Positions 11,911 through 47,237 of a stretch of DNA of 64,000 nucleotides are shown here, one piece after another. The position numbers and the translations under genes were made by a program. The stretch comes from Sorghum bicolor. Taxonomy: Eukaryota; Streptophyta; Magnoliopsida; Poales; Poaceae. Every line of letters starts with the position of its first letter. The first letter of the stretch is position 1. The stretch spans positions 10,036,501-10,100,500 of the forward strand of contig NC_012870.2 in the NCBI RefSeq assembly GCF_000003195.3, read 5' to 3'. The notes beneath the pieces are model-generated. The model saw only the letters and a program-made list of their open reading frames with translations, was not told the origin of the DNA and ran no database searches.

Positions 11911-12111
11911 TAATTACGTTAATAATATGGTTGTATAATTTGTATACTATTATTATCTATGCAAAGGTGATGTTCATATATTGTATTTCTACTATAGAGA
12001 AGCGAGTTGAAGAGTGTGCTATAGTTATGGATAGAAACAAAGCACGGTGATATGTAGAACTGATTTCCGTCTTCTACCCTGTGAAACCTAAGTATCACTA
12101 GTACATTGGCA

Positions 12112-12320
12112 CACTATACAGGCGGTTGGTAACATATTTCTACAGACGTTTTCCGGATCCGCCTGCGCTGGAGGCCAGTAGAAATCGTCCATTTCCACAG
12201 GCGGTCACTTGAGAGCCGCCAGTATAAACCTTTTACACAGGCGGCTCTCTTAGGAAACCACCTGTGTAAATGTTCATTTACACAGGCGGTTTCCTAAGAG
12301 AGCCGTCTGTGTAAACCTAT
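12112..12320. repeat. CACTA left subterminal repeats with a large hairpin
   Basis: There are about seven copies of the CAGGCGG/CCGCCTG type in both orientations. The stretch 12232-12318 is nearly self-complementary: TTTACACAGGCGGCTCTC, the loop around ATGTTCAT, then the inverted copy. In CACTA elements such arrays bind the element's own regulatory protein. Confidence 0.75.
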
Positions 12321-12324
12321 TAAA

Positions 12325-12412
12325 ATATGTATTATTTATTTATTTATTTAATTTATCTATTTATTTATTTATTATTTTATTGTTATTATTTAAATATATT
12401 GATATTTGTTGG
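12325..12412. repeat. (ATTT)n-type low-complexity DNA
   Basis: ATTT/TTTA units with interruptions form an AT-only stretch just inside the CACTA left end. Confidence 0.8.
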
Positions 12413-13038
12413 TCTTCTAACATAGCAACATGTAATTTAAATATTTCATCTCATACATACATTTGTATACATCAAAGTTTGGTGCTCAAAGACATAAATT
12501 TAATTACAAGAGTATATCCATCATCACACATCATATAGATATATATACATCAAAGTTTGTTTCTGTCCTCTAATAACCCTCTTTAGTAAGTTTTAGCTTA
12601 CTAATCTCTGTTAGCACTCGGAACTCTGGCCTGGATAATTGGCTTTCATCATCATGATATTTACCTTCACGTGGAATGACATGCTTCATGATGAACGAGC
12701 AGATGTCCTCTACTATGTTGTCTAAAGCACGTTCGTCCATGCGCTCCGCCGTCCCTTGCTTATATACCTGCAAAGAAAGTTTATAAACATTATATATTTT
12801 ATGACTTCCAACTTTAATAGACTATTACTTATATTACCTTGTCAGGGTTCCTTGCATATCGTTTGTTTTCTCTCATGTTCTCGCACACGTAGTAGCCACA
12901 GAGGACAGATAACGGTGGTTGCTTCATGCACTGTATAACAGGAGAGTGGTTATTGAATTATAGTTGCAACTGTGGTCGTATGTGTATGATTTGTATTCAT
13001 AATAGTAAATTTTTATACGTACCGGCCAGTTATGTATA

Positions 13039-13043
13039 ACCTC
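13039..13043. repeat. Target-site duplication ACCTC, left copy
   Basis: ACCTC directly precedes the retroelement and recurs at 16416-16420. Deleting the element plus one copy restores an unbroken coding exon of the CACTA protease ORF, which independently fixes both boundaries. Confidence 0.85.
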
Positions 13044-13323
13044 TGTAACGTCCCGCCTCTACGAGGCCGGGCCCGCTTACATCTGGCAGCTTTTCTAGGA
13101 CATAGTCAGCCCCCACAGACCAACACTTCGTCTTTTCTGCACACTTTGTTCTCACTCGCGCGCACCCGGAAAGTACTTCCCGATCGGTCACCCATCCCTA
13201 AATTGCTCTAGGCTAAGCACGCTTAACTTTAGAGTTCTTTATAGATGGGCTCCCGGAAAAGAAGTTGCAACTTGTTGATATGAGTCTCCTATTAATCCTA
13301 TTAAGCCCTGGCCGGGTGTTACA
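13044..13323 (-). repeat. LTR copy A (inverted), with 5S rRNA-like core
   Basis: This 280-bp copy, read on the minus strand, runs TGTAACACCC to GGACGTTACA. It contains AAGTTAAGCGTGCTT (complement of 13215-13229) and GGATGGGTGACC (complement of 13186-13197), in the order and spacing of the 5S rRNA internal promoter. It is nearly identical to copy B. This combination marks Cassandra-type TRIM elements. Confidence 0.85.
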
Positions 13324-13339
13324 TCCTCACCCCCTTAAG
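13324..13339 (-). promoter_or_regulatory. Polypurine tract next to LTR copy A
   Basis: On the minus strand CTTAAGGGGGTGAGGA ends exactly at the start of LTR copy A. A purine run at this place primes plus-strand DNA synthesis in LTR elements, so copy A is a 3' LTR lying on the minus strand. Confidence 0.7.
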
Positions 13340-13506
13340 AGATCGACGTCCTCGTCGATCAACCCCAAGCCAGGAACGTCCCCTCTTGGCCACGTCCGTG
13401 CATCCAGTGCCAGCGCATGTGCCATGTTGTGTGACCACTCTGGGTCCACACCAGCCATGCACACCATGCCTGCGCAACTGCGACACACGCGTCCGTGAAA
13501 CCGCGA

Positions 13507-13787
13507 TGTAACACCCGGCCCAGGGCTTAATAGGATTAATAGGAGACTCATACCAACAAGTTGCAACTTCTTTTCCGGGAGCCCATCTATAAAGAACTCT
13601 AAAGTTAAGCGTGCTTAGCCTAGAGCAATTTAGGGATGGGTGACCGACCGGGAAGTACTTCCCGGGTGCGCGCGAGTGAGGACAAATTGTGCAGAAAAGA
13701 CGAAGTGTTGGTCTGTGGGGGCTGACTATGTCCTAGAAAAGCTGCCAGATGTAAGCGGGCCCGGCCTCGTGGAGGCGGGACGTTACA
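13507..13787 (+). repeat. LTR copy B (forward), with 5S rRNA-like core
   Basis: This 281-bp copy starts TGTAACACCC and ends GGACGTTACA. The 5S-like blocks are AAGTTAAGCGTGCTT (13602-13616) and GGATGGGTGACC (13634-13645), followed by GGGAAGT as in plant 5S rRNA. A tRNA primer site follows at once, so this copy is a 5' LTR. It is not a 5S gene: the 5' third of 5S is absent and the sequence between the blocks has diverged. Confidence 0.88.
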
Positions 13788-13790
13788 GAT

Positions 13791-13802
13791 TGGTATCAGA
13801 GC
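13791..13802 (+). promoter_or_regulatory. Primer-binding site (initiator tRNA-Met type)
   Basis: TGGTATCAGAGC lies 3 bp after the LTR end. It is the standard plant retroelement site complementary to the 3' end of initiator tRNA-Met. Confidence 0.85.
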
Positions 13803-13866
13803 TTTGTTGACTGTAGGACGCAAACCTAGGTATCAGAGCTTTGTTGACTGTAGGACGCAAACCTAG
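13793..13866 (+). repeat. Perfect 37-bp tandem duplication over the primer site
   Basis: Positions 13793-13829 (GTATCAGAGC to AAACCTAG) are repeated without mismatch at 13830-13866. All but the first two bases of the primer-binding site therefore occur twice. Confidence 0.85.
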
Positions 13867-15119
13867 TTAGCAATGGTCGAAAATTTAGGTCCTTCATTTT
13901 ACTTACTTCATGCTTTCCACTATGGCCTTCTTATTTGCTAAAAGTTTTATGCTTCTCTATCTTGCTCTATTGTGAAATTATTGCATCCATTTGATCTATG
14001 TCTAAAAACTGTTTGCAGATGCCGCTCCAGCCCAGTCTTTTTTTTTCCGCAGCTGAGCGGCCCAGCTCGCCAGGCAGCGGCGCCCTCCCTCCTTTCTGCA
14101 ACGGACAACGCGGGCCCGCCTGTCGGTGTCCTGTTCTTCTTCCTCATTTCGGAACCGAGCCGGACTCCCATCGCAGCCGCGTTCGATCCCGAAAACGACG
14201 GGATTTCCTTGCTTTTTCGCGCAACCGACCCCTATTTAACCCCCAAGCGTCGCTCGCGTGTTTGTTTTCCGCCCCGACGCGAGTCTTTAGCCCTAGCCGC
14301 CTGGTTTCCTCGCCGTCGGGATCTTGCCGAAAGCCGAATCCGCCACCGCACGTCGTGCGCCTCTCTCGCTACTCCTCGGCCCCAGCAAAACACTCCAGCG
14401 AGTCCGTGGTGAGCTCCTCTATCCCGTGGCGTATTCCTTTCGCAGTTTGGTGCGCAGAAGCGAGAAAGCCGCAAGCTCCGGCGAGCACGGGCCCTCCGGC
14501 CATGGCGGCCACCGCGCCGGAGAGGAAGAGCCAGGCCGGCCGCCGCCGAAGCCCCCTGGAGGCGATCTCAGCCCTCGGATCGGACATCAACGGCTCCAAA
14601 CACAACTTACCCTTTCGCCGGCATTTATGTTAAAGAGTCCCTGGATAATTCTACAAATTACCCCGCGGTCCTTGGCGCCCCGAGCAGGTTTACGCTTTCC
14701 AAATTCAGAAAGCGTATTCTCTGTCGGTTAAACTAAAATACGTTTTCCAGAAATTACAGAATTGCCACTGATTTTATAATGCTCATAAAATATTCATTTT
14801 AACTCCGTTTTTGTCCGTTCAAATTTCATTGGATTCGTATTTACGAGCACTACATGTTAGAAGTAGTAGTTTACTGTTTTGAAACTTTTTATTTTCGCAG
14901 TAGTATTTAATTAATTATTTCTCTATAGGAAATCTTAGAAAATTCATATCTTTCACGTTTTAATTCCGATTTTCGTGAACTTTACGTTTGTGTGATCGTA
15001 GCGCTGCGTAGATTATTTTCATAAACTTTTATATTTGTTTTACCACTGTTTGGTGTATTGTTCTAATTATATCTTGTTTGCTTCGTGTATGATTGTCTAC
15101 ATTGGATTGCGTGTTGTTG

Positions 15120-15900
15120 ATTGATGATTGGGATTAGACGGTGAGCCGTACGTTGGTGACCAAGACTAAGCTTTTGAGGACCAGCAGGCTTAGGAGAGCT
15201 TTGAGCAAGGCAAGTATAACTTGGGATCATCCTTGTCACCTATTCACTTAAGTACACATATATATCATATGCATGCTATCACCTTGTCGACCTTAGCAAA
15301 ATCATAGATGATTGTTACCTGTATTCCTTGCTACCTACTTGATATGCATTTGGTGTAGATGTGCTACTGCTTGATATAATCCATGATCTTGTAAGATAAT
15401 TAATAGCTATGCAATGAACATAAAAGAATGACAAATAACTGTATGAGATCTTGTCTGTACGCGATCACCCGGGATAACAGTGCAACCATGAGGGCTATAA
15501 TGGCTCTGGCTTTAGCTCAGTATGAAGACCTTTTCTAGCTTGTTAGAGGTTACCCGAAAGGGCGGAGGGGCTGAACCGTTTTGGGTATAGTGCGAGCCCC
15601 TGTCCCTATGTGTATAGGCTGCGCGTCATTGTGCCATTCGGAAGGGGGGTATCTATATCTGCGCGTAAAGGAAACCTTGCGGCCCTAACATGTTAGACGA
15701 ACTTTTGAAAGGCTTCATAGTGATCCCTACCGACCTCCCTTGGAAGGGGGTTAAGAGATTAGCTACCTCAGGCGAAAGGGTAAATCATGACTCATGGGTA
15801 AAGATGTACAACCTCTGCAGAGTGTAAAACTGGTATACTAGCCGAGCTCACGGTGAGGAGCGGCCTTGGGGACATCTACATTAAGATGATGAGCTTATTA
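15120..15900 (+). other. Non-coding internal region of the retroelement
   Basis: No frame is open. The sequence (around ggtgagccgtacgttggtga and gagcaaggcaagtataactt) looks like internal DNA of the grass non-autonomous gypsy-type elements I know, but no domain supports this. Confidence 0.4.
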
Positions 15901-18317
15901 TGTTGTTATGTTCATTTGATAATTGTTTATGCTATGATTTAATTATGCTTACACTTGATCATGTGGTTAAAGGGTTATTTATGCTACCTTGACAATTGCT
16001 ATACAATTATGAATATGCTATCTACTATTAAAAGCTAAATGCAGTCAAACTAGTGTCAGCTATTTGAGCCTCATGAACCCCTGGTTATACTTGTTGAGGA
16101 CGATATGTGCTCACTCTTGCAATTTCCCAACACCTCAGGATATGATAATGAAGATGACTGGAATGAGGATTATCGTTATGAGTACTAGGTTTGGAGTCAA
16201 CCAGTCAACAGTGTCCCTGTGTGGAGCTTCCGTCGAGAGCGTTGTTTACTTTATGCTATCATATTTGTATGAGACTATGTGATATTTATATTCCGCTATG
16301 TAATAAACACTGCAATGGTACATTTGAGATTTGTCTACTTATGTGTGCGACTGTTTCTGGGGCACATATGAGTCTTTTATGCATCCTATTTTGTTCTTAA
16401 AATATGGGTGTGACAACCTCCAATGGTTGCCCTGGTCTCTTGGACTCACACTTTCCATAATTTATCTTATAGAACCTGTATGCCCTATGATCTCAAATAG
16501 AATCACCATGTTATTGTCAAATTCTCACTATGCTTAAGTATGCATGCATAGCTTGACTTACAGCTCTAGCAGTTTGATGAATGGAGCATAGCTTTCTTTC
16601 GCGTAATCTGCGGAGTCTAGTACCAACACCCTTCCCTCCTTGGGATAAATGATGAAGCATATCCAGTGCCTCCTGCTCGAATTAAATCCATGATGCATTT
16701 ATGCATTGGAATAATTTAGATAGATATTTGTAAACTCACACTTACCCAAAGTGGTACGGGGCCACCACCGCTTTCCTGTCTTAAAACTTTATTAGTGAAT
16801 GTCCAATGTAGAAGGCATATTTGCCTTCAAAATCAAGTTTCAACTTTCGGAGTTTCTCATCCCGTTCTGCACCTTCCAAACCCTGTACCTCTGTGCTGTC
16901 ATTCCCGATCCGGAATGTGTGCCGATCTTCGGCTATATCTATTGGGCAGAGATAGGCATTCCTTTCTTCGGCACAATAATTTAGGTCCGAACCAAAATAC
17001 ATATCTTGATCATATAACATTCTGCAAGACAGAAGCATGTCAGATATTGAAAATTGATGCAACTATAATGTGTGTAACTATGTAACACTTACAATGCAAA
17101 TGCCGTTACGATCTGTACATCTAGCATCTTGTGGTTCATCAGTGCCCACATGTCATCAAATGTAAGCATGCATTTGTCAGTACTCTGGCTGAGAAATGCT
17201 ATTTGTGGTATGCGCATGCTTATGGTGTCGATGCCAGCAGAAGAGGCTCTCAGTACCAGTCATGAAACCTTTTTATACCACTTGGTTTATTCATAAGTTT
17301 GGTCCGACTGAGTAGAGGCTTTCCCCACACGTACTTTTTGGGGATATTCTTGTAGTCTTCTGCAGTTGGCACCTTGAAATTGACAGGAGTTATGACCTTA
17401 GGCGCCGGCACCTCTGACTTTGCTAGCTCAGAAATCTCATGCTCTTGTATTGTGCGTTTCGAAGCAATGCCTGACAAAAATCTCACTTGCCGAGCTGATT
17501 TTTTTCTTTGGCTCGAATGGTGAAATCAACTTAGGTATCAGAAATACTTTCTTCTTTGGCACCTTTGGTGGCTCACTTATTGGTCCTAGATCTTTGAGTT
17601 GTGGGGAAGGGGTGGAATTGAATGGTGGTGGAGATTGTGTTGACTGTGGGGTAGAAAGATCATGGAGAGGAGATGGTTGATGGATAGGGAAAACATGGAG
17701 AGGTGATTCTGGTGGGTCAGAAAGAGACTGGGGAGGTGAAGGTGGTGGGTTAGGAAGAGGATCGACATGAGCTGACGACTCTTGGGTTAGTGGCATCTCT
17801 TGAGAGGGTGGTGGTGGCTCCCTTAGTTGCACGTCCCTCCGAGGCCATAGGATGAAATTGTTTATCGCCTGTCCTAGTTTCACAATGTCCTCGGGACCAG
17901 GGATGTCTAGAATCTCGTCCTCGTATCCTTGGACCATGGTTGATACCTCTACTCTGCAGTAGTCTTTAGGGATGTCGGCACCATGGTATTTAGGTCCTCC
18001 TAGGATCGCTTTGCCCGTGGCTACTTCCCTTGTACGATGATTGTTAATCCCATATCTTATGACAAGGGAGCAAGGTGTAGAACTAACAATGTCGTCAACT
18101 GGATAGTGATCCTTATTTGCCGTAGATGCGACACTGCTTGGAATGATTGTTTCACTTGATGCCACCAACGGTTGCGACACCACTGGGACTAGCTGCATTT
18201 GGGGAGCTTGAGTGCTCATTTGGGTAGCTGCATTTGACATGGCACTCGCTAGTTTCTGCATCAACTCAGGAGGAGGATTTTCTAGCAACTTCCCCATCAT
18301 CTCTTGGAAGTCTCTTC

Positions 18318-18905
18318 CTAAAAATAATTTGCCATTTGATCCTTGTACCGATCACGTTTCTTATACTCATTTGCCCATTGAGGGCCAAATCCATCCTTCC
18401 ATCCTTCTTTGGATGAGATGCCACGAACACGGCCAGGATGCTCAGGGTTACCGAGGCCAACACTAAGGATGTCCCTCTCCCTTCGTGGCGTAAACTTGCC
18501 TTCCTGCTGCATGCCTGCCACAGCAAAGATGCTCTTCATTGCTTCATCAAGCATTGGGTCTTCAAAGGACACAACCGTCTCGGTTTTCTTTGGTTTCCGA
18601 GCACGGATCCAATTCGCGGACCTTTCACCGACTTGCTCGGACAACACTGGCAACCCTACTGCCTTCTTCGCAGCCTCTTCTTGCCTCTATTTAGGAACTT
18701 GGTATCGGTAACCACCTGTGCCTAGATGGTGGTGGTACTTGTTCCTCTTTGCGAGCTGGGAGTTGGCTTCGCTCCGAGCTAAGAAGTTAGGGTCATTCCT
18801 CTACTCTAGAAAAACAGCCCACTGCCCTTTAGTAATATTGTATTTGGATGTCGGATCCATCCCTGTCTTTGCATACTTGACCTTCATCTCCGACCTCTAA
18901 TTTCG
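18318..18905 (-). other. Cluster of three TAG nonsense codons in CACTA ORF2
   Basis: In one otherwise coherent frame there are TAG codons at 18897-18899, 18801-18803 and 18687-18689, each followed by AGG. Each is one C-to-T step from CAG, and CAG is a CHG methylation site. Confidence 0.75.
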
Positions 18906-19680
18906 GAAACTAACCGCACATTGCTTCATTGTATATGCCTTCACTAAATCTTCTGGCACATTCCTAGGAAACTGGAACCTGGTCTTAATCTTATCCCAAA
19001 TTTTGATCTTGTGATTATTCGACACACCGGCCCAGTTCTTAACTGTGATATCAAGAAAGTCCCTCACACAGAAACCAATTGCGTTCCTGTATTTGGGTAG
19101 GGCCTCCTCTGGAGCTAGGGGCTGCCCGGTAGGGCTCACATCTGTGATGGCATATGTGTCATCTGGAAATTGGTTCAACCCTCTCTCGCCTCGTTTCAAA
19201 CCTTGTCGCTTCCTTTTTGTAGACTGACATGGCCTCTCAGGGCTCGTCGTTGCTGTCGTCGGTTCCGGTGCGTCTTCGTGTGCCACTTCCTCCTGAGACA
19301 TCATCTCTCTAAACTGAGACATTGCCTCCTGAGTATAGACATGTGAATCATGGGCGTGTTTATATGTAGGAACTATGAATAGAAATCATTTAATTACATG
19401 AAATCGTGAATGTCTCTAATTTACCTCATCGGCTTCTAGATTGTAATCGGGGTCACGTGCCAATTCACGACGAGTCTTCCTCACTTCTAGAGGCTCCATG
19501 CCGTCGTCGCTAGCTTCTTGCTCATAGGACGAACCTGATGCTTCGCCTGTTTCTACTTGTTTCGTGACCTCACGAGCTTGTTCCATAGGGTCAGTTGACC
19601 CTTCTACTTGCTCCGTGGGTTGGGATTGCAGTGTTTCGTCCTTGTGCGGAGAACTCATCGTAGAAATCTATGTAATTTAT

Positions 19681-20168
19681 TAACATATGAAATAACAAGT
19701 ATTTAACATAATCACATATGAAATAATAATTATAAATAATACATATATATATTTCTATACAAATAATACATACATATATTTCTATACAACATAATCACAT
19801 ATAAAATAATAAGTATTTAACATATGAAATAACAAGTATTTAACATAATCACATATGAAATAATAATTATAAATAATACATACATATATTTCTATACAAC
19901 ATAATCACATAATATTTCTATACAAATAATACATACATATATTTCTATACAACATAATCACATATAAAATAATAAGTATTTAACATATGAAATAACAAGT
20001 ATTTAACATAATCACATATGAAATAATAATTATAAATAATACATACATATATTTCTATACAACATAATCACATATGAAATAATAAGTATTTAACATATGA
20101 AATAACAAGTATTTAACATAATCACATATGAAATAATAATTATAAATAATACATACATATATTTCACT
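19681..20168. repeat. AT-rich tandem array upstream of CACTA ORF2
   Basis: The block built on ATGAAATAACAAGTATTTAA, followed by AATACATACATATATTTC, recurs with starts near 19686, 19823, 19986 and 20095. The spacing of about 110-165 bp varies by insertion or loss of subunits. It lies directly before the ORF2 start on the minus strand. Confidence 0.8.
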
Positions 20169-20214
20169 AAACAAATAAATTACTAAAGTAAAAAAAGGAA
20201 ATCTACAATCACGG

Positions 20215-20492
20215 CCCAGCCCGTGACTCCCTCTCCTCTCCCCTCCTCTCTCCCTCTCTCCCTCTCTCTGGCAGATGGGCTCCACGTGTCGGGGCCATCC
20301 CTAACCTCGCGCCGCGCGCTGCCCGCACGCCGCCCGCACGCCGCACGCTCGCCTCGGTGCCCGCGCAGCCACGCGCTCTCCTCGGTGCCTCGCGCCGCCG
20401 CCCTGGCTTCCGCCGCCGCCCTACCTGCCGCCGCGCGCAGACTGCCGCCGCCGCCGTGCGCGCACGCAGAGAGAGAGAGCGAGTGAGGAGAG
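20215..20492 (-). other. GC-rich leader-like DNA interrupted by the solo LTR
   Basis: This is a GC-rich block (CCGCCGCC runs, GA-rich edge) that continues after the solo LTR at 22451-22560. It lies between the middle repeat cluster and the ORF2 start, so it may be the 5' leader of the ORF2 transcript. The alternative is a captured host gene fragment; I cannot tell which. Confidence 0.35.
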
Positions 20493-22450
20493 TGAAAGCC
20501 CTAGTTTGGTTTTGGATAATTGATGAAACCCTAATACTAACCTCTATACTAAGTGTGTGTAGATTTAATGAGGTTGGTACATGCCAAGTGATGGAGCAAG
20601 TAATGATCATGGTGATGATGGTGACGACCACAAGATGATCAAGTGCTCAACTTTGAAAAGAAGAAAGAGAAAAACAAAACCCTATGGAGATCAAGGCAAA
20701 GGTATTGCTTAGGGTTTTGGTTTTGGTGATCAAGACACCAAATCACATTTAGGATAGATAGCCGTACTATAAAGAGGGGAATTCTTTGGCTAAGCGGTTA
20801 TCAAGTGCCACTAGGTGTCTTTGTTCATGTGCATGCATTTAGAACCTAGTGAGCTAACTTAACTCCTTCGAAGAAGATGGTTGTGAAAATGCTAACACAC
20901 GTGCACAAGTTGGTTTACACTTTGTGGTGTTGGCACACTTTGAGAAGGAGGTGGAGTTTGAAAGGTAGAGAGAGGATGGGTTCCTCTCTCCCTCCCGCCG
21001 AGCTTGCGAGGCGGGATTCGGCGCTTTTCGAGAAAATGAAGTGCATATTCTCTATTGCGCCGGTGGGAAATTTGGAGAAGTCACGGGAGTGTTTCTCGCT
21101 GAGAAAACACTCACCGGACGCTGGCTTCTGGAGCACCGGACGCTGCGTCTGAGCGTCCGGTGCAGACAGTGCCTGGCCCAGCTAGGGTAAGGCACCGGAC
21201 GATAGGCACCGGACGCAGCTTGGAGCGTCCGGTGGTGTGCGTCCGGTGTGCGGGCATTTTGCGACCCTCTCTGCGCATGGGTCCGGTGAGCACCGGACGC
21301 TAAGGGTGCGTCCGGTGGCTTGCGTCCGGTGACCCTGCAAGTTTTCGAAGCTCTCTGCGCATGAGTCCGGTGTGCACCGGACTGTCCGGTGCTCACCTTC
21401 CTCAGCGTCCGGTGCACTGCAGGTGACCGTTAGATTCTGACACGAGCGTGACACGTGGCTGACGTTGGAGCACCGGACGCTGGTGTTGAGCGTCCGGTGC
21501 CCCTTTAAGAGCGTCCGGTGACCCCGCAGTTTGCCCAGTGAAAGAGCCAACGGCTCTATTTGCTTGAGGGGTTATAAATACGTGTTTGGCCGGCTTGGGG
21601 CTCACACTCTTGGCATTCTAACATACTTGACATCCTTGTGAGCCTAAGAAAACACCTCCCACTCATCTCCTTCATAGATTATACATCTTTGTGAGATCGG
21701 GAGTGATTCCAAGTGCATTTGCTTGAGTGATTGCATCTAGTGGCACTTGGGGATTGTTCTAGCTGCGGTTTTCTTGTTACTCTTGGTGGTTGCCGCCACC
21801 TAGACGGTTTGGAGCAGCGGAGGAGGATTGGCACGAGTTGGTGATTGTTCGTGGCCATCTCCCAGTGATTGTAAGGGGTCTTGTACCTTCCCCGGCGGAG
21901 AGCCGAAAGGTAACTCTAGTGGATTGCTCGTGTCATTGAGTTACCTCACTTGTGGGTTGGTTCTTGTGGTGTCCTAGTGAGGACGAGGTTCGTGCTACAC
22001 CTCTTAGCCACCGAACCACCAAGTGTTGGTCGACACAACGGGGACGTAGCGTGCCGGCAAGCACGTGAACCTCGGGAGAAAAATTCTTTGTCTTCATTGT
22101 GTTTATTCATTGGATTTCTCCCGGTGATTGGACTTCATATTATTGATTGGTTCATCCCCTCTACGCGGCGGTATAAAAATCAAACCATCTCTTTTACATT
22201 CCCGCAAACTAGAGTAGCTTTCTTACTTGTATAGAAACTTTAGGTAGCTCTCTAGTGTAAGTAGTGACATAGCTCTTGTGTTCCTAGAGATTATATCAAC
22301 TAGAATTATTGGATAGGTGGCTTGCAAACACCCCTTTAGAGCTAGAGCAAAAAGCTTCGCTTTGTTATTTACTAACCTCTTGCTCTAGTGAGTTTGTAGA
22401 ATTTTTAAATAGGCTATTCACCCCCCCTCTAGCCATATTAGGACCTTTCA
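20493..22450 (+). mobile_element. Solo LTR, 1,958 bp
   Basis: It begins TGAAAGCCCTAG, ends GGACCTTTCA (TG...CA with TGAAAG/CTTTCA inverted ends) and is flanked by GAGAG at 20488-20492 and 22451-22455. There is one LTR only, with no primer site, polypurine tract or internal coding, which is the footprint of recombination between two LTRs. A TATA box (TTATAAATA, about 21571-21580) lies after a U3 part packed with CCGGAC/GTCCGG motifs. The terminal block (ccccccctctagccatatta) is the reverse complement of a very common grass repeat end. The superfamily is not assigned with certainty. Confidence 0.85.
21110..21525. repeat. Array of CACCGGACGC/GCGTCCGGTG motifs in the LTR
   Basis: I count 18 CCGGAC or GTCCGG cores in about 415 bp, in both orientations. 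At 21364-21390 three cores form back-to-back palindromes. The array ends about 50 bp before the TATA box. Confidence 0.85.
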
Positions 22451-22635
22451 GAGAGGCTCACCGTCGGACGGCTACGGCGTCGAGGGCGGACTGCTCTGGC
22501 AACGGGAGCAACGGCGTCGCGGGCGGCTACGGCGGCGTGGGAAATTCCGGCAGCCTGACGGTGTGGTTTTAAATGAACTGAGCGCCAGACTTAGAAAAAT
22601 TTCGAGAGGGAGCTCGAGAGTTTTATTCCTGGGGC

Positions 22636-22785
22636 ATTAGTACAGGCGTAGAAACCATTTCTACATGCGGTTGGCTTAGCCGACCGCCATTACTAATGCA
22701 TTTGTACAGACGGTTAGCTAAGCCAGCCGCCAGTACTAATGCATTAGTACTGGCGGTTGGCTAAGCCAACCGCCTGTACAAATGT
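22636..22785. repeat. Middle cluster of CACTA-type GGCGG repeats
   Basis: There are six to seven copies of ACAGGCGG or GGCGGTTGGCTTAGCC in both orientations, including the palindrome GGCGGTTGGCTAAGCC around 22754. It sits between the 3' end of TNPD and the leader of ORF2, where a single CACTA element would not be expected to carry an end-type array. Confidence 0.7.
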
Positions 22786-23716
22786 ATTTTCAATTTATTT
22801 AAAGTTTTCCTTATATATATTTTTAGAAATTATTTAAATGATTCAAAAAATCATATCTTCAAAAATATTTGTCCTAAATTAGTGAAATTTTTTTTGTTGT
22901 GTTCCTCTTGACCAGAGACACATGTTAAAAATATGAAATTTCATGTTTGAGGTACTTTTGTATGCAGCTTTATTTAAAATGATTTAAATTGAATATGTGC
23001 CTCGTATCTTGTTTAATAAATAAATAATTCTAGGAATACCAGAAAAATATAAATCCAATTTTGTTAGCTTTATTGTAGTGTGTAAATGCTATAAAAAATA
23101 TATTTCTTTGTGCAATTTATCGTTGACAATATAAATGTGAGGAACCCATATGTTCGAGCATAGTTCGGTGGAAAGACTCTTATACGTTTGTGAAGTATGT
23201 ATGTTATGCCTATCTCCAAATGTCTTGAAATATTTTTGGCAAGCTTCTACACTCAAATGATAACCCCACACAAGATCTTAGGATTTTCTGGTCATGCAAG
23301 CTATTATTACATTTTTCTTTGTGCTAAATGAGATGAAAAATAGTGGACTACACCTAGAACCTACTAGGTTTTTCCACCAACCACAAGGAAGTTTTATTTC
23401 CTATGGTATATAAGACCATTTGGAGAAGTTTGGCACCATTTGGAGTCATTTCAGGGGTAGACTTAGTTCAAGCGCTAATTAGTGGGCGACGTCGCACGGA
23501 AATTCAATTAAACCGGATAAAGTAACAAACCACATCAGAAAAATCCCAAACTTGGTGGATTGAACATCAATGGCACTAGTAACCCTTAGTAAAAGTTTGA
23601 GACCAATACGACACCAATGGCACTAGTAACCCTTACATGTAGAAATAGAAAAGGGCACATAGCATAAGGTACACATTTTATCATAAATACATTACATGGT
23701 AAATGACAAATAAAAT

Positions 23717-26700
23717 CTAGGCAGCTACTGTTCTTCCTTGTCCATCGTGACGCACCCAAGGCAACGAGCTCTGTGGAATGCTTCGCTCAACATTCCTTAT
23801 CTTTACTGGATAGTCGTCTACAAAGAGAGACATGTCACTGAACTGGTTAAATTCATCCAAGTCAGATACACCATCAACTCCGATGGCTTGTTGCTTTCCA
23901 GGGAAAACTATGTGTTTTGGATGGTCCGTAATTTTCTTCTTATCATTAGGAGAGAGGACCTGCTCAGCATAGAAGACCTGTGCAGCACGGTTAGCCATTA
24001 TCCATGGATCATCTTTGTAGCCTACCTTGCTTAGATCTAGAACTCTAATCCCATAGTTGTCCACTGTGACATGGTTGTCTTCAACCCATTGACACCGAAA
24101 TACAGGGATCTGAAATGTACCATAGTCTAGTTCCCATATGTCCTCAACGAAGCCAAAGTAAGTTGTTTCCTCACCAGTTTCAGAGTCTAAGGCGTCGCAT
24201 CGAACACCACTATTTTGTGCCATGCTCTTTTAGTCTTTGGACTTGGTACAGAACGTGAAGCCACTAATGTCATAGGTTTGCCAAGTCGTGACCTGGCATG
24301 ATGGCCCAGATGCCAAGACCTTGATGGTGCGATCCTCGAGTGTTTCCCCATCTAGAATGTCCTGCTCCCTTAGCCATGAGGTGAACTGATTCTTATGTTC
24401 CTTCATTATCCATTCATCTGTGTGCCCATGATTATGTTTTTGAAGCTCTTCAATGTGTAGATTGATCAAAGGCTCCATTATCGAGAGCTGATGCAGGACG
24501 CTGTGATGTGCTTCGAGGACCGAATTGTAATCTTTTGGGACCTATGATTTCTTTCCCATCCTACCTCTTCCATTCAGCCTACCCTCGTGTCGTGACGGAG
24601 GCAAACCTATTGCAACCTGGTCTTTTAGGACCCTATTGCAGAATGGACCTCCGGACTCAGTGGCCTCTTCGGTTAAGTACCCCTCTACCATAGACTTCTC
24701 TGGACGAGCACGAGTTGATACATAGCCATTTAGTATTGACATGAAGCGTTCATACGTCCACATCTCATGCAAATACATGGGACCCAATGCCTCTATTTGT
24801 GAAACCAAGTGCACCACAAGGTGAACCATCACATCGAAGAATGCTGGGGGGAAACACATCTCAAACTGTGAAACTGTCTCCACTGTGAATTCCTTAAGAG
24901 ACACCAACTCATCACATTCAATCACCTTCTGTGAGATCCTGTTGAAGAAGTAGCACAACCGTGTAACTGTAACCTTTATCCACACTGGGTTTATAGCCCT
25001 AATGGCAATAGGGAGAAAAGTAGTCAATGACATGACAATCATGTGAGTTGTAGTTGGTGAGTGTAAGGTCTTTCATTGACACAATACTCCGTATGCTAGA
25101 GCAGAATCCAGATGGGACTTTCAATTTCTTCAACCACACACACATCTCATGTTTCTCTTCATTGTTGAGGTTGTAGCTTGCTGCCGGGAGGTGGTACTTC
25201 CCATTTTCTAGCCTAACAGGGTGAAGTTCTTTTTTTTGCCTAACTGTACCATGTCTAAGCGTGAATTTAATCCTTCCTTTGTCTTGCCCTTCATGTCCAA
25301 CAAGGTGCCAATTACGCTTTCAAACACGTTCTTCTGAACGTGCATACCATCGATCGTGTGGCGGACGTCTAACTCTGGCCAGTATTCCAAATACTCGAAG
25401 AAAATTGACTTCTTCTTGAATGTAGCCCCTAGAGCTGGCTTGACATTCTTTCTTGGTTTTCCATCTTTTCTCTTCTTCCCAAAAACAAATTTGAGTTTGC
25501 TGACTATGCTGAAAACTCTTTGGCCTTTACTGTTACCTGATGGAGCAGTAGTCTGTAGTTCACTATTATTGTCAAAGTACTTATCCATCTTTTTTAGTCG
25601 GTACCTGTGTCCTTTTGATAAGAAGCGTTTGTGCCTCATGTACACTATCTTCTTAGATGCAGTTAGGGACACGTAAGCGGTGTCATCTATGCATACCACA
25701 CAACCTAACTTTCCCTTGAACTGCCCTGATAATGTAAAGAGAGCTGGGTAGTCATTGATCGTAACAAAGATAATTGCTCTCAGTGTGAATGATTCTTTGC
25801 GGTACTCGTCGAATATTTGAACACCTGTTTCCCATAGTATCTTCATGTCTTGCATTAAGGGCTCCGAGAAAACATCCATATCAACTCCAGGTTGTGTAGG
25901 TCTAGAGATAAGGATGGTTAGTAAAAGGTACTTTCGCTTCTGCATCAACCATGGAGGGAGGTTGTAGATGGTGAGGATCACTGGCCATGTGATGTGCTTG
26001 CTGCTCCTCTCAGCAAATGGATTCATTCCGTCAGTACTCAGTGCGAACCTAACATTCCTTGGTTCATTAGCAAAGTCCTTGTGGTTTTCATTGAAATCTT
26101 TCCACTGCTGGCCATCGGCTGGGTGCCGAAGCTTCCCATCATCTTTGTGCTCATCAGAAGCATGCCAGCTCATAAGTTGGGCATCCTCTGGGTTAGCAAA
26201 CAAGCACCTCAATCGATCGATCACAGGAAGGTACCACATCACCAAAGCAGGAATCTTTTTCTGCGCATAATAGACTACTTCTTCCTTTTCTTGGCCGGTG
26301 GGTTTTGAACTACTCTTCTGGGTCTTTTGTTGGGCCTTCTTTCGTTTTTTGCCCTTAGGCACAGAGGCAACACACTCTTCCTCTATGTAGTCTTTATTTG
26401 TCTTGTACCTACTTGCACCACACTTGGGACAGCTGTCCAAGTCTCTATAATCATCGCCTCGATATAGGATACAATGATTTCTACAAGCGTGGATCTTCTC
26501 AACACCCATTGTGAGTGGGCTGATTAGCTTCTTTGCATAATATGTGTTAGCAGACACTTTGTTATCCTTAGGAAGCATGTCTGCGATAATGCTTAAGAAC
26601 GCATCAAAGCCAGCATCAGAAAGACCATATCTAGCTTTGCACACCAACAATTTTAGCACAGACCACAGCGTCGTGAACTCTTTGGTGCAACCCTTGGACT

Positions 26701-27247
26701 CATCATACAAAGGCTCTTCTACTGCCTTCATTAGGGCCTCCATACCTTTCATGAAGAACACTGATGGATCTTCCGCATGACGACGCAACATTGCCTCTAG
26801 AAATTCTGCATCTTCCGCAGCCATGTTAGTTTCGGTGCCATCTTCATTTCCTCCAATAAAACTATGATCAGGAACATTTGGCACAACATGTTCAGTGGCT
26901 AGACCATCGGTATTAGGTTGTTGTGTCTCATGTACGAACTCAAACCCGTCAATAATTCTAGTTGTATAAGGCGCAGAGCTACCCTCTCCATACTTTGTCC
27001 AAATCAAGTAATCTTTCATAAATCCTCGACGGACCAGATGAGTAAGGATTTGTTGAATGTCATCAGATACAACAAGATTTCTACAATCCATGCATGGACA
27101 ATGTATGTGCGTCTTTCTTGTTCTTGAAGCATGGTTTTGAGCAGCATCAATAAACCTCTGGACCTTTGTTATGTATGATGGATCTAGTCTTGATAAATTA
27201 TACATCCAAAATGACCTCTCCATCACTACCTGTAAAACACCATTCAT
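23717..27247 (-). pseudogene. CACTA TNPD transposase (tnp2 family), frameshifted
   Basis: A 679-codon open frame (27247-25208) starts with a transposase-associated N-terminal domain (about residues 10-90; HCPCMDCRN). Next comes a Cys-rich segment (CRNHCILY...CPKCG) and then the tnp2 catalytic region (about 360-660). At 25231-25238 an A8 run shifts the frame: one more A would continue into LHPVRLENGKYHLPAASYN, as in other tnp2 proteins. A second shift near 25035 leads to a DUF4218 part (25042-24542), which ends in TAG. A further stop separates the last segment, a DUF4216 part (24223-23717). Domain order equals that of known TNPD proteins, so family assignment is firm, but at least two shifts and two stops prevent one product. 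Confidence 0.88.
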
Positions 27248-27351
27248 ATGATCTAAGGGTTTACAAAGGATTTATCTAGGGTTTATTAGCTAGGGTTTAT
27301 GGTTAAGCTTGAGATTAAAAGAAAAAATCTAAGTTACATAATTAAAAAATA

Positions 27352-28340
27352 ATCTAAGTATAGCATAACTATATAAATACATCATTCATTATAAATAGAT
27401 AGATGATGTGGAAGGTGATAATAAAAAACCTAACTACCATATAATTAAAAAAATCCACAATTATCTCTCTACATAAATATACAAAGAACACACCATTGGT
27501 TTAATCTTGTAAAAACTAGCTAAATTGAGAAGCAAACATGTTGAGAGGCATTATCCAACCATATTAAGCAACCCCATCTAACCATATCAACAAATAAAGA
27601 CAAGAGGCTAGTTATTCTTCTCTCTCACTCATAAAACATACATACATGTTGATAAATAAATTGAAAAATTTATAAAGAGAGAGAGAGACATAAATTAGAA
27701 AACCTAAGTATAGCATAACTATATAAATACAACATTCATTATAAATAGATAGATGATGTGGAAGGTGATAATAAAAAACCTAACTACCATATAATTAAAA
27801 AATCCACAATTATCTCTCTATATAAATATACAAAGAACACACCATTGGTTTAATCTTGTAAAAACTAGCTAAATTGAGAAGCAAACATGTTGAGAGGCAT
27901 TATCCAACCATATTAAACAAACCCATCTAACCATATCAACAAATAAAGACAAAAAGCTAGCTATTCTTCTCTCTCACTCATAAAACATACATACATGTTG
28001 ATAAATAAATTGAAAATTTTATAAAGAGAGAGACATAAATTAGAAAACCGAAGTATAGCATAACTATATAAATACAACATTCATTATAAATAGATAGATG
28101 ATGTGGAAGGTGACAATAAAAAACCTAACTATCATATAATTAAAAAAAATTAACAATTATCTCTCTACATAAATATACAAGAACACACCATTGGTTTAAT
28201 CTTGTAAAAACTAGCTAAATTGAGAAGCAAACATGTTGAGAGACATTATCCAACCATATTAAACAACCCTATCTAACCATATCAACAAATCAAGACAAAA
28301 AGCTAGCTATTCTTCTCTCTCACTCATGGTGAAACCCTAG
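27352..28340. repeat. Three tandem copies of a ~347-bp unit
   Basis: Copies start near 27357, 27707 and 28052 (agtatagcataactatataa), spaced 350 and 345 bp, and are more than 90% alike by eye. They lie between the TNPD start codon and its presumed leader exon, and so probably inside a 5' intron. Confidence 0.88.
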
Positions 28341-28719: not shown

Positions 28720-31380
28720 CAAAAGAATCCCGGCTTCATCCATGAAACAGAGGAATCATGTCACACTTATTGCACCAAAGTAACACACTCAAATATTCAT
28801 ACAACATTAAGAGCTCACAAAACATTCCTAAAACCGAAATATCATCCAATGAGGGAAAAAAAGACGTTGAACTTTGAGGTGTAGGCCCGTAGCACGCAAG
28901 ATTGATGATCAACTTAGCAACATCACTGTACTGCAACTAACTTTAGGACTGGAGCCAATATATTCCTTTAAATAAAGGTAAAACCTAAAAACAATTAGGT
29001 TTGCATTTATCAAACACGATATCATTTCTTAAGTCAAATAGACCATTGTTCCCATATTAGTAGTAAAAAGTTTTGTTTTTCCTTCCCTTCTTGGTTATAC
29101 CAAACAGCAAATACATGCTCCACATCTAAAGGTAAGGGTGATACCAAACACAATAGGTAACATCCACCAAAGAAATTTAGCATAGCGGTACTTAGGTCTT
29201 GTTTAGTTTCCCACCTAAAAAATTTCCTTCCATCCCATCAAATCTTTAGACACATGCATGGAACATTAAATATAGATAAAAAAATAAACTAATTACACAG
29301 TTTGGTTAAAAATCACGAGACGAATCTTTTAAGCCTAGTTAGTCTATGATTAGCTTTAAATGCTACAGTAACCCACATATGCTAATGACAGATTAATTAT
29401 GCTTAATAGATTTGTCTTGTAGTTTCCAGAGGAGCTATGTAATTTATTTTTTTTATTAGTTTCTAAAAACTCTTCTCGACATCCTTCCGACACATCCGAT
29501 GTGACATCCAAAAAATTTTATCTTCAATCTAAACAGAGCCTTAAAGAAAGAATATTGAGTAGTCTCAACAGTGCTACAACCTACAGACCCACATCAGTAG
29601 ACCTAGCTATGCCACTCTAGTAGGCTCGTAGCTAAGTTATGTTTTGTTAGTGTCACCTCTTTTTATTCAAGTTTATATAGAAGAGTGTCTAATTTTAAAT
29701 AGATATATTTCAAAAATATATTGTGCTAAATATAATGATATATATTTGGTAGGTGGAATAAATTTGGGTTAAGCTTAGAGTCATTAGGTAAAACAATACA
29801 CTCTTTTTTACAAAACAGTTCGAGACTAGCTACTCGAGTTCAATGGCAAACAATCGAAGTGGGTTTCAAATTTTCGCATGTTACTCATTAACTGGTACGA
29901 TGTTTGCCACATCTCGTAGCACCTACCTCTGCACCAAGCAAGCAACAATGAGCATCCATATGCTCGATTATATTAGGGTATTCTCGAACAACATCCATTT
30001 GACTCACAGTCACAGGGCGGCTAATTGTTGACTTGTTATACTTACGCACAACTAACCTAGTACGCGGTGCGCCGCCCGCTAATTGCAGACAGTTGGGGCC
30101 TAACTTTGCATGGCTGTTAAGTTGTCGCATGTCTTTACAGGGAATCATCAAAGATCCAATAATCGATCGTTGACTCATAAAACACTACACCACCGACCCA
30201 GCACCGCTGAACGCGGGCGCGCGGTTACCGATTATATATAATCATATACTTGATCCCATTCTTTGGAGCGATATGTTTCTCTATCCTGATCCTTGAATGA
30301 ATACGTACAATGTTTGCACAGGCAACTCACGCCTCTAATTATCTACTTGACAATCAATCATCACTCACATGTGCATATATCAACCATGTATACGCAGATT
30401 ACTATGCTTGAAGCGAGATATACCAAGTGCCGCACTTTTAACTATGATCCTAAGCGATATTTCTATGTTTAGCATATGATGGAATGATTCAAAGCCTCTC
30501 TTAATTAGAGCTGGCTCCAAATTTTTGCACCCAACTATATGTGCAAGTCCATCTTGATTATTGAAAAGTCACGCGCAAGCATAAGATGAAATACTCTTAT
30601 TACGACTATTCGTTTTAGAGGAGGACGAAAGAGTGGGTGAGGTTCAAATTACTACCGGAAACAAATCAAGGAGTTACGATTTGGATTGATGATCTTTTGA
30701 TTTAAATTAATGAGGGGTAAAATGAAAGGAATAGAATAGTTGCACATACTTGTCTATTAGTACGAGAAAAAGAAGAAAGATCGACCACGGTGTATAGGCC
30801 CGCTGCCGCTAGTATCAGCCACCGCACTCTCATTGAGCCCGAGGTCGCTGAAAGCATATTGGTGCTGTGGGCCTCCCACGCCACCCACAGGACGAACTGA
30901 TCGGGCGCACTACACCACGGCCCGATTGGCTGATGGGTCATGCGTATACTGGGGTAATAGTACGACGAAACTGACGAAAGGGATGCACATACAGCGGTAT
31001 AGAAGTCGACAAGGCCTAGCCCTCACACACATATGAATTCGTGCGATTCAATCAGAAGCCAGGAACCTTGCACGATTTTGTGCGACTTCCGCACAAAAAT
31101 ATAAATTACTGCGTTGCGTGAACAAATATCGGCACCAAGGCACCAAAAGATATGCAAGCACATGAATACTCAGTACAAGAGTACAAGACCGACGTTGCTG
31201 AGCAACGAACAAAGCCAACATGAGTTCAGCTGTGGCCGTGTTACAGTTCAAAAGCTAAAAGAAAAACCAGACAAAGCACTACCGAGTTAATCCAGAGTTC
31301 GATCTTAATTATACAGATGTTTCACAGTTTCGCCGAACGGCCCAATACAGAGCACAAGCTTAGTTTCACTTACAACACAC
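28720..31380. other. Intergenic stretch with a MITE, no gene
   Basis: Apart from the MITE at 29195-29540, I see no supported gene here. A weak protein-like stretch on the minus strand near 29900-30020 (MDVVREYPN) could be a very old gypsy polyprotein scrap but is too short to call. Confidence 0.45.
29195..29540. mobile_element. Tourist-like MITE, GGYCTTGTTTAG family, 346 bp
   Basis: It starts GGTCTTGTTTAGTTTC and ends AATCTAAACAGAGCC, with TTA at 29192-29194 and 29541-29543. It is the longest and least deleted copy of the family repeated at 41-47 kb. Confidence 0.8.
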
Positions 31381-41244: not shown

Positions 41245-42207
41245 GGCCTTTCCAAAAATTTTGTAAAATTTTTAGGATTTTCCGTCACATCGAATCTTTA
41301 GACGTATGCATTGAGTATTAAATATAGATAAAAATAAAAACTAATTACACAGTTTGGTCGGAATTGACGAAACAAATCTTTTGAGTCTAGTTAGTCTATA
41401 ATTAGACAACATTTGTCAAATACAAACGAAAATACTACTATTTATATTTTGCAAATTTTTTTGAATTAAACAATACGACAAAGTACTACTCCACTCACCA
41501 AGATCTGCTCAATATACACCTAGGTCTTGTTTAGTTCACCCCGAAATTCAAAAACTTTTCGAGATTCTCCGTCACATCAAATTTTATGGTACATGTATGA
41601 AGCACTAAATATAGACAAGAATAAAAACTAATTGCATAGTTTGTCTGTAATTTACGGTACGAATCTTTTGAGCCTAGTTAGTCTATAGTTGGACAATAAT
41701 TATCAAATGCAAACGAAAGTGCTACAGTGTCAAAATCCAAAATCTTTTCACAACTAAACAAGGCCCTAGTTCATTTGGCAATTTTTTTTGAATTTTAGGT
41801 ACTATAACATTTTCGTTTATATGGTAATTATTATTTAAATATGGACTAACTAGGCTCAAAAGATTCGTCTTGTAAATTACAGGTAAATTGTGTAATTAGT
41901 TTTTATTTTCGTCTATATTTAATACTCTATGCATGTGTCACACGATTCGATGTGGCAGAGAATCTTAAAATTTTGTGGGAACTAGTTCGCGGAAATTTTT
42001 GGCTTTAGCTACTGTAGCACTTTCGTTTGTATTTGATAATTATTGTCCAATCATGGACTAACTAGACTCAGAAGATTCATCTTGCAAATTACAGGCAAAC
42101 TGTATAACTAGTTTTTATTTTCATCTATATTTAAAGCTTCATACATACGTCCAAAGATTTGATCCGACATGAAATCTTGAAAATTTTAGGAGACTAAACC
42201 AAGCCTT
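41245..42207. repeat. Cluster of four GGCCTTGTTTAG-family MITE copies
   Basis: There are four head-to-tail or inverted copies: 41245-41475 (truncated), 41523-41765 (complete), about 41770-41995 and about 42000-42207 (both lacking one end). All share core blocks such as TCGTCTATATTTAATGC, ACACAGTTTG and the GATTCGATGTGACA motif. Confidence 0.7.
41523..41765. mobile_element. Tourist-like MITE, complete copy, 243 bp
   Basis: GGTCTTGTTTAGTTCACC pairs with AACTAAACAAGGCC, with CTA at 41520-41522 and 41766-41768. Confidence 0.8.
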
Positions 42208-43014
42208 AGATAATGAACAACTACTACTACATGAGTTTCGAAGTTTAGGGTTGGTTGGTGACTAAAACCTGCCACGCTAATGCCACAATTTATTGGACAA
42301 CTATTTGGTTCACTATCACATCTATAGCACGCCAAACTTTCTTAACATCTTGCCCCATATGTCATAGACTTATTTTTATGTCAAACTTTACCATAAGTGT
42401 GGCTTTAATTGTAGTCATCATTTTTTTTAGCAGCCACAATTCGCCGAAGATTAAGCATGGTAAGTTTTGGTCACCAATTAAACAGGCCTTTAGTATTGGT
42501 CTCCCGCGGCTTTTGAGCCTTCAGAGTAGTTCATCATAAGTTCATGTAATTGTGGCAGCGGCTTTTTATTCCTGAGTTGGTATCCACTCACGGAGCTGGA
42601 AGGTTATCTAGTGAGATGCCACCCCTTTGACTTTTTTTTACGAGCACCCCTTTGACTTTATGATAGGGACCTTTATCAAATGAGGCAAAGAGCAGCCACT
42701 CCTACCTTTTTGTCGGATAATGGATATATACGGCGTAATGTATGTACATCCTTCGGGGTATCGGAAATGGACGCTTCGGATCGTGTGGGTGCAAGTACGC
42801 ACGGTAGCTTTTCTCTAGACAATTGAAAACGTACATGAAGACGTGCATGCTCTCCAGCCTCTCCTCATCTCATCCTGTGCACAGAGCCGTTGACTGATGA
42901 CTGAACCGCAAGATTTGGCTTAAATAAGCTTCCCTCCCACTAGAAGGAATGAGGAATGACCTTAGAACTGTCATCCAGTGGTATAGGAGTAGGTGCTAGT
43001 CGCAATTGGCTTAA

Positions 43015-43175
43015 GGCCTTGTTTAGTTGGACTAACTAGGCTTAAAAGATTAGTCTCATAAATTACAAGTAAACTATACAATTAATTATTTTTTATCTAT
43101 ATTTAATATTTCATGTATATGATATAAAATTCGATGTAATGAGAAATCTTGAAAAATTTTAAAACTAAACCAGCC
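43015..43175. mobile_element. Internally deleted Tourist-like MITE, 161 bp
   Basis: GGCCTTGTTTAGTTGG pairs with AAAACTAAACCAGCC, flanked by TAA (43012-43014 and 43176-43178). It lacks about 80 bp of the family core. Confidence 0.75.
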
Positions 43176-43275
43176 TAAATAAAAGGGCGACGCCCTGTAC
43201 CGAGCTACTACACTATCAGTTGACCGGCAAATGAAGTATATACTGAACCTTCTTTTTCACGTCCCTTTCTTTTCG

Positions 43276-43583
43276 GACATGTTTGGCATATATTACAACA
43301 GTTTTATAGACTGTTTTTTTTGCCAAACACTAATTTTCAAAACAATTTTATGGGTAAAGTTATTTTCTCCTCCTCTAATAAAAACATGAGTTGGACTAAG
43401 ACTGAAAAAATAGCTTATTCTATTTTCATCTCACATAGTCATTTTATTCCTTAATTTATTATGTGAAGCTGTTTTACCAAACACTTGTTACAAAATAATT
43501 TAGCTTTAATAAGAAAGCTGCTTAAAGCTATTCTTTGCACAAAAAAAACTTATATGGTGAAGATGAGCTGTGCCAAACAGGAC
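43276..43583. mobile_element. MITE with GGWCMTGTTTGGCA ends, 308 bp
   Basis: The left end GGACATGTTTGGCA and the right end TGCCAAACAGGACC are near-perfect inverted repeats. I could not settle the target duplication, so a hAT or PIF origin is open. Confidence 0.6.
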
Positions 43584-43763
43584 CTCCTGTTTGTTGCTAC
43601 AGATTCATATATTTAGAAGGCCCAAATCTAGAGCTGCAAAGGCCCAGATCTGGAGCTGGAAAGAACGGGGACCATTGGGTTGGATAGCTAGCTCGGCAGC
43701 TTGTTGGGCCGGCAGGCTGGCCAGTTTAGGTGCTCTGTCGCTCATCAATTCGTCGGGACTCAC

Positions 43764-46516: not shown

Positions 46517-46700
46517 TATAGCTATAACCTTCCTTCCTCCGGGAAGCAGCTCGCAGCGGCAACAGTGGCCGGCAGCGAGTGTCACACTGTCACGCTCGAA
46601 CACACACTGACACCGCACAAGGACTTGCCGCTGTTGGTTATTTGACTCCTCTTTTGTCCCGCCGCGCGCATGGCCCCCCTCCTCCTGTCTCTCCGCTCTC

Positions 46701-47215: not shown

Positions 47216-47237
47216 TGCTTGTGCATTGCGATACTTG

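Follow-up and report, generated by a model that had tools for sequence, protein, structure and literature searches.

A compound unit of Cassandra and Ty3/gypsy sequences in Sorghum bicolor, probably a chimeric cDNA that integrated once

Introduction

Cassandra TRIMs, as characterized in PMC7215508, PMC10853983 and PMC10886601, carry a 5S-derived core within a short LTR, a Met-type primer binding site (PBS), a polypurine tract and no coding sequence, with a total size of 565-860 bp (PMC10886601). Their autonomous partner is stated as unknown in PMC7215508 (2020) and PMC10886601 (2024). The locus studied here raises the question of how two LTRs of this type came to stand head to head. A preliminary description of a 64,000-nucleotide stretch of Sorghum bicolor DNA (hereafter, the window) reported two such LTRs at 13044..13787, inverted around 183 bp inside a DNA transposon, and took them for a Cassandra-like element with two divergent Pol III-type promoters. 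We asked what this arrangement is, where it ends and how it may have formed.

Results

The LTR pair belongs to Cassandra

Delimited by their TG..CA ends, the two LTRs measure 280 bp (minus strand) and 281 bp (plus strand), lie 183 bp apart and form an inverted repeat of 97.5% identity over 285 aligned columns, which bears out the head-to-head arrangement. Both hold AAGTTAAGCGTGCTT and GGATGGGTGACC in 5S order, just as first described. The 5S part of a published Cassandra query (from PMC7215508) matches only two places in the 64 kb, one per LTR (Table 1), and the whole query, PBS included, fits the right LTR side (13603-13802). Comparison with shuffled LTRs, named in the preliminary description as grounds for doubting the blocks, showed them to be real: the 5S part of the query was matched in 0 of 20,000 dinucleotide shuffles of each LTR. 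When the LTRs were aligned locally with a plant 5S rRNA gene, the left one scored 61 and the right one 64, above the maxima of 26 and 29 from 1,000 shuffles each. The Rfam 5S model found no match at its gathering score in the 64-kb window, nor at E<=10 in 12000-15000; the LTRs therefore contain a 5S-derived core and no more. No match to the 5S-like core was found in the viral contig and genome contig collections scanned. In the Sorghum genome, a similarity search (428 candidates, 40 scored, 171 matches reported) identified the LTR as the Cassandra LTR of that genome.

The two cores do point outward, back to back as had been proposed, and may act as Pol III promoters. The first TTTT past the core occurs at 13897 on the right and only at 12325 on the left, so that Pol III, if it transcribed the left arm, would make a long RNA.

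Canonical Cassandra copies in the Sorghum genome read LTR-PBS-interior-LTR and span 757-766 bp in the eight copies measured; their flanking 5 bp are identical in 18 of 23 pairs and differ in the other five. These copies have the two direct LTRs and the total length of 565-860 bp expected of Cassandra. The unit in the window, with its inverted LTRs and a length of 3,372 bp, has neither. The Met-type PBS, TGGTATCAGAGC, is found after the right LTR but in the context of another family, and is missing from the inverted half.

The integrated unit extends into gypsy sequences

The LTR pair is only the left part of a compound unit with TG..CA ends, which reaches 16415; the interval first assigned to it is too short. 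Read from left to right, it begins with the 3′ half of a Cassandra in inverted orientation and goes on with a Cassandra LTR in forward orientation; the PBS and leader of a high-copy Ty3/gypsy family (G) come next, and a G LTR reduced to its 3′ part closes it (Table 1). Both termini are U5 ends, the left one belonging to a Cassandra LTR and the right one to a G LTR. Of the single inverted-LTR Cassandra-like element initially proposed, the inverted Cassandra LTRs stand, while the element itself gives way to a chimera with gypsy G parts, in which the left LTR is a 3′ LTR and the right one a 5′ LTR. All junctions described here and below, in the window and elsewhere, come from one assembly.

Table 1. 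Coordinates of the compound unit, its parts and its host within the 64-kb window
Feature	Position	Strand	Basis or remark
Left target-site duplication (TSD), ACCTC	13039..13043	.	identical 5 bp at 16416-16420
Cassandra 3′ LTR, inverted	13044..13323	-	unit begins on the left with its U5 end
5S-derived core of left LTR, A box to C box	13186..13228	-	5S part of published Cassandra query; 5S alignment
Cassandra internal region	13324..13506	-	polypurine tract CTTAAGGGGGTGAGGA at 13324-13339; comparison with canonical copies
Full-length Cassandra LTR, direct	13507..13787	+	now 5′ LTR of the chimera
5S-derived core of right LTR	13603..13645	+	published Cassandra query
PBS TGGTATCAGAGC	13791..13802	+	runs on as gypsy G
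37-bp direct repeat, PBS and start of leader	13792..13865	+	copies 13792-13828 and 13829-13865 identical
5′ leader of gypsy family G	13829..14028	+	similarity search
3′ part of G LTR	14022..16415	+	LTR position 325 of 2,690 to terminal GGGTGTGACA; alignment to G LTRs
Right TSD, ACCTC	16416..16420	.	matches 13039-13043
Host CACTA-type transposon, approximate extent	12573..27271	-	tnp2 ORF 25211-27271; DUF4218 24545-25072

Past the right LTR, the PBS, which we take to be of the initiator tRNA-Met type, runs on as TTTGTTGACTG (TTTGTTG, as in G) rather than as Cassandra's CGACTC. A search with 13790-14640 as query yielded 1,787 candidates, of which 40 were scored; 34 of these matches were confined to 13829-14028, at 94-96%. 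At other loci the G LTR ends in GGGTGTGACA, with AATTGGTATCAGAGCTTTG beyond the boundary, where the same leader follows (loci L037, L039 and L041); the recurrence of this LTR end together with this leader indicates that one G family gave both the leader and the 3′ LTR of the unit. The LTR part in the window is 89.4% identical to the LTR of L046 and 96.2% to that of L048. The unit has no gag-pol, the leader passing directly into the LTR; inspection of the sequences shows 8 bp of microhomology, CCGCCCCG, at this join. By Pfam, a G exemplar (L049/L060) encodes gag, protease, RT, RNase H and integrase, the last with H2C2 and rve domains; a possible chromodomain after the integrase, as expected of a chromovirus, matches Pfam Chromo (E 7.3e-05) with 23.1 bits, below the cutoff of 25.1. 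The unit combines the leader and the LTR by which this Ty3/gypsy family is recognized. G and Cassandra have the LTR start TGTAACACCC and the PBS TGGTATCAGAGC in common and differ in the LTR end, which reads GTTACA in Cassandra and GTGACA in G. A search for tRNA genes in the 64-kb window found none.

A single target-site duplication encloses the unit

The location inside a DNA transposon, noted from the start, was confirmed by a CACTA-type transposase of the host (Pfam tnp2, E 1.9e-74). The host exon that the unit interrupts looks protease-like by eye; three other host frames gave no Pfam match. Weak inverted matches at 12.2 kb/28.6 kb surround the host, whose CACTA termini were sought and not identified. 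A single outer duplication, ACCTC, encloses the whole compound unit, and when the unit is removed with one ACCTC, a minus-strand frame runs for 63 codons without a stop across the join (..AYRFYKINYGKCESKRPGQPLEVIHNWP..). The repeat on both sides, the TG..CA ends and the open joined frame argue together for one integration. Against this, a repeat of 5 bp arises by chance about once in 1,024.

Several other repeats were seen in the window. A 41-bp inverted repeat with 2 bp between its arms (window 12232-12315) resembles CACTA subterminal repeats; its Rfam match to mir-1912 (E 2.4e-05, 33.3 bits, where the gathering score is 72) is probably due to chance. A tandem repeat with a unit of ~350 bp, 93-95% alike, occupies 27336-28327, and many repeats of ~110-460 bp, on both strands and with 71-93% identity, lie in 41256-47475, 58896-59135 and also near 29190-29350.

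The inverted half ends at the edge of the primer site

The minus-strand half retains its 3′ LTR, polypurine tract and interior and has no 5′ LTR. It also lacks exactly the 18 nt from TGG onward, that is, the PBS beginning with TGGTATCAGAGCC, so that its interior starts at nucleotide 19; the forward Cassandra LTR abuts the edge of these missing 18 nt, joined to it without microhomology. A search of the 709 Mb at <=3 mismatches found this junction a single time. Loss of exactly 18 nt, together with the uniqueness of the junction, counts in favor of a join between cDNA ends. It also bears on the idea, implicit in the preliminary description, that the locus represents a regular family with inverted Cassandra LTRs and two divergent Pol III promoters. 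The inverted pair does exist; being present in one copy only, in a unit that holds the leader and LTR of another family, it makes such a family scarcely credible. A simple inversion of LTR and PBS within one Cassandra was ruled out, since G sequence follows the right LTR.

The two Cassandra LTRs of the unit differ at 6 of 280 sites and are each other's nearest or tied-nearest relatives, the right LTR being equally close to a solo LTR (L061; 6 of 279), a tie that counts against a common source. Within-element differences range from 0 to 13 sites in 22 ordinary pairs and amount to 21 in a 23rd, head-to-head pair on C9. In a tree of 62 LTRs the window LTRs are sisters with a support of 0.755. Both have an A at 13589, found in 0 of 54 other LTRs compared, and the corresponding variant, CTATAAAG, occurs at <=1 mismatch in only six LTRs genome-wide, namely the window pair and four LTRs spread over three further loci. 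Rare variant and sister position alike point to one source of both Cassandra LTRs. Two independent, adjacent Cassandra insertions were rejected on account of this variant and of the one outer 5-bp repeat.

A nested history would have a minus-strand Cassandra insert first (with the ACCTC duplication), followed by an element that combined a Cassandra LTR with a G interior and landed at its primer-site edge and, last, by a deletion between GGGTGTGACA at the G end and GGGTGTTACA at the Cassandra end that kept ACCTC. The precise LTR start at 13507 suits this sequence of events, the two termini, alike over 10 bp with one difference, could mediate the deletion, and nesting does happen in the genome, the unit itself lying inside a DNA transposon. 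Even so, we judge it unlikely: the insertion would have struck the exact edge of the 18-nt PBS by chance, the sister LTRs with their rare variant look as if from one source, and a ready-made Cassandra-LTR/G hybrid would still be required, which leaves the chimera in place.

A conversion after integration would instead start from a resident G element flanked by ACCTC, whose 5′ LTR was replaced by a head-to-head Cassandra copy during break repair, with TGTAAC guiding the repair on the left side and TGGTATCAGAGC on the right. Both microhomologies are present, and Cassandra copies do stand head to head in an array at C9:19.675 Mb. That array is joined differently, at ATACCA, and with the window junction being unique at <=3 mismatches no donor is seen; furthermore, boundaries at an LTR terminus and a PBS arise from reverse transcription alone. 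We consider this route very improbable, more so than nesting.

Similar junctions occur elsewhere in the genome

A Cassandra LTR followed by a G-type leader was found at three places: the window, C3:~40416782 and C7:5678551. The pattern of Cassandra LTR end, PBS and TTTG, at <=2 mismatches, recovered the window and the C3 locus. A second pattern, which excludes canonical copies and misses diverged ones, gave 12 places at <=1 mismatch, three with the G-type leader (window, C3 and C7) and nine with altered or deleted Cassandra leaders, as judged by eye. At C3 (L051) the order is G LTR, PBS, Cassandra interior, Cassandra LTR and then a G-type leader with broken gag frames, a double exchange whose foreign-LTR side lies at C3:40416295. 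The Cassandra LTR at C7 is full-length (95%); behind it come a G-type leader (77-78%) and, where gag is expected to start, a reading frame; ~6 kb further on are a G-type integrase end and the start of a 3′ LTR (77%), these being two end pieces only, with 5.1 kb between them. The LTR match of the last piece breaks off and other sequence follows.

The reciprocal arrangement, in which the PBS and interior of Cassandra stand behind an LTR of another family, is present at C3, C6:28.298 Mb, C6:53.831 Mb and C8:19.349/19.372 Mb. A search for the Cassandra PBS returned 187 places; inspection by eye of the 100 matches listed showed a foreign LTR end before the PBS in three (C6:28297733, C6:53830690 and C8:19371961), C3:40416295 and C8:19349619 having been found by other patterns. 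At C6:28.298 Mb the foreign LTR starts with TGTAACATCCC after GAACT, and GAACT also follows the Cassandra LTR; the 6.7 kb searched for GAACT+TG would contain ~0.4 matches by chance, and the fitting TGTAACATCCC comes next. From these flanks the chimera at C6:28.298 Mb has probably integrated as one piece. The LTR at C6:53.831 Mb is ~77% alike to the foreign LTR at C6:28.298 Mb; a flanking repeat was sought there and not found. The C8 LTR belongs to a third family, followed by its own leader in 56 of 58 places and by Cassandra in two; the two C8 loci, 97.5% alike over 758 bp, were counted as one event. The G LTR end with PBS and CGACTC matched 78 places at <=3 mismatches, exactly only at the C3 chimera, most of the others reading CCGTGTT, the leader of a G-like family. 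At least three foreign LTR families are thus joined to Cassandra, so that G, the one shown to be gypsy, is no exclusive partner.

Some further loci came up in these searches. The array on C9 (L002/L052, C9:19.675-19.677 Mb) consists of head-to-head Cassandra copies, the PBS of one half being joined to the next LTR at ATACCA; matching 5-bp flanks were looked for by eye and none were seen. It was rejected as a second copy of the window structure, since it retains the PBS and the join falls inside the LTR. An odd LTR end at C4:23853390 turned out to be that of a diverged Cassandra LTR (88%, L059). At C3:45.764 Mb (L003/L056), Cassandra PBS, interior and LTR, with no 5′ LTR, lie between retroelement-like reading frames, with GAATGG common at the upstream join; this locus was not counted as a chimera, its neighboring frames having been judged by eye only. 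Finally, a Cassandra copy at C8:10853175 (L065) has the PBS TGGTATCAGAGCCAGGTT; this fits 18 nt of initiator tRNA-Met and is presumably a copy of the tRNA.

Discussion

A chimeric cDNA as the probable origin of the unit

On the anatomy of the unit, its 5-bp repeat, the rare variant common to its LTRs and the recurring PBS junctions elsewhere, we think that the unit is most probably a chimeric cDNA of Cassandra and Ty3/gypsy G, integrated once. Its formation could have begun with Cassandra and G RNAs being reverse transcribed in one particle by G enzymes; co-packaging of the two RNAs appears likely from the joined sequences. Cassandra plus-strand strong-stop DNA, comprising LTR and primer site, would then have annealed through the common primer site to G minus-strand DNA, to give [Cassandra LTR]-[PBS]-[G leader]...[G LTR]. 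The G part would have suffered an internal deletion at the 8-bp microhomology, and slippage in the primer-site region would have produced the 37-bp duplication. The free U3 end of the Cassandra LTR might next have been joined, without homology, to the end of a second Cassandra cDNA whose synthesis had broken off where the 18-nt primer site begins; the inverted half would thereby have come to lie on the left. Integration of the linear product by its two U5 LTR ends would account for the ACCTC duplication. The order of these steps, and the joining of both ends by integrase, we infer from the structure of the product. The double exchange at C3 could reflect the same strong-stop transfer occurring twice.

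An exchange at the PBS is what would be expected from intermolecular plus-strand transfer between elements using the same tRNA, and its recurrence, in one direction in the window, C3 and C7 and in the other at C3, C6 and C8, counts for the chimera reading. Other observations weigh against it. Integration by two U5 ends is unusual and seen in one case only, the C7 ends are only ~77% like the G exemplar, and no outer repeat was found at C6:53.831 Mb. Moreover, TGG is preceded by T, as in G, both in the window and at C3, and the two bases before this T, GA, are those of Cassandra. The crossover would then fall a single base ahead of the PBS, a position not expected from plain tRNA-templated transfer. 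The objection is not decisive, since at C7 the whole spacer before TGG is that of G and a Cassandra copy (C6:28842561, among the matches listed) itself has GAT.

Possible significance for Cassandra

The chimeras show that the sequences were joined, most simply in one particle; regular mobilization of Cassandra by G enzymes would go beyond what they show. More broadly, Cassandra could be a parasite that is promiscuous among Met-primed LTR families, using gypsy G as well as at least two more and being copied by their enzymes, with the common primer site letting strong-stop DNA move among them and with cDNA bearing two U5 ends still able to integrate. We put this joint proposal forward tentatively, our doubts slightly outweighing our confidence in it as a whole. 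If it is true, an autonomous gypsy element can gain a Pol III-type 5S LTR (as at C7) and Cassandra can gain foreign LTRs (as at C3, C6 and C8). Hybrid junctions at the primer site are a physical record of the elements copied together with Cassandra: they name testable candidate partners, hint at which elements may power an element so widespread in plants and turn the question into a genome-wide count repeatable in any grass. The inverted unit, for its part, suggests that LTR cDNA with two U5 ends can integrate.

Comparison with known systems

A full-text literature search, most subscription papers lying outside its scope, yielded no Cassandra/gypsy chimera and no known Cassandra partner, which does not prove their absence. 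The available portions of PMC7215508, PMC10853983 and PMC10886601 describe tandem arrays of Cassandra, not inverted chimeras; compared with the elements portrayed there, the unit in the window has one LTR inverted, one half without PBS and 5′ LTR, and gypsy sequence attached.

A close precedent is the set of template-switching LTR complexes reported in Triticeae, rice and maize by Sabot & Schulman 2007 (PMC1950507), which are likewise compound cDNAs with one 5-bp TSD, ascribed to switching between co-packaged RNAs. Those complexes involve the same family, with three LTRs and matching outer LTRs, whereas here a TRIM and a gypsy element are joined at the PBS, an inversion is present and the outer ends are unlike (Cassandra on the left, G on the right). 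Of the features by which these authors recognize such complexes, the single TSD around the whole is found here (ACCTC) and the highly similar outermost LTRs are not. The long Veju TRIMs and BARE-2, chimeras also mentioned in PMC1950507, are ascribed to abnormal template switching in the part of PMC13317346 at hand, Veju being itself a TRIM; they differ in being established subfamilies with other joined sequences, and that part describes no 5S core or inversion in them.

Partnerships have otherwise been argued from shared ends. For RLG_Cereba/RLG_Quinta the argument, as far as the available text of PMC11302176 goes, is the common PBS and LTR termini; here it comes from hybrid junctions, Cassandra and G sharing the PBS and LTR start and not the whole LTR end. 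OsajRetroS10 and OsajLTRA10 (PMC4717578, in the portion available) similarly pair a TRIM with a proposed autonomous element and include a duplicated 25-bp stretch with TGGTATCAGAGCC; theirs is a copia type with shared LTRs, as against the 37-bp duplication of a gypsy leader found here. Chimeras by template switching are thus already known (Sabot & Schulman 2007; Veju; BARE-2). To these the present analysis adds Cassandra/gypsy chimeras whose families are named by sequence, with an inverted member among them and a likely integration through two U5 ends.
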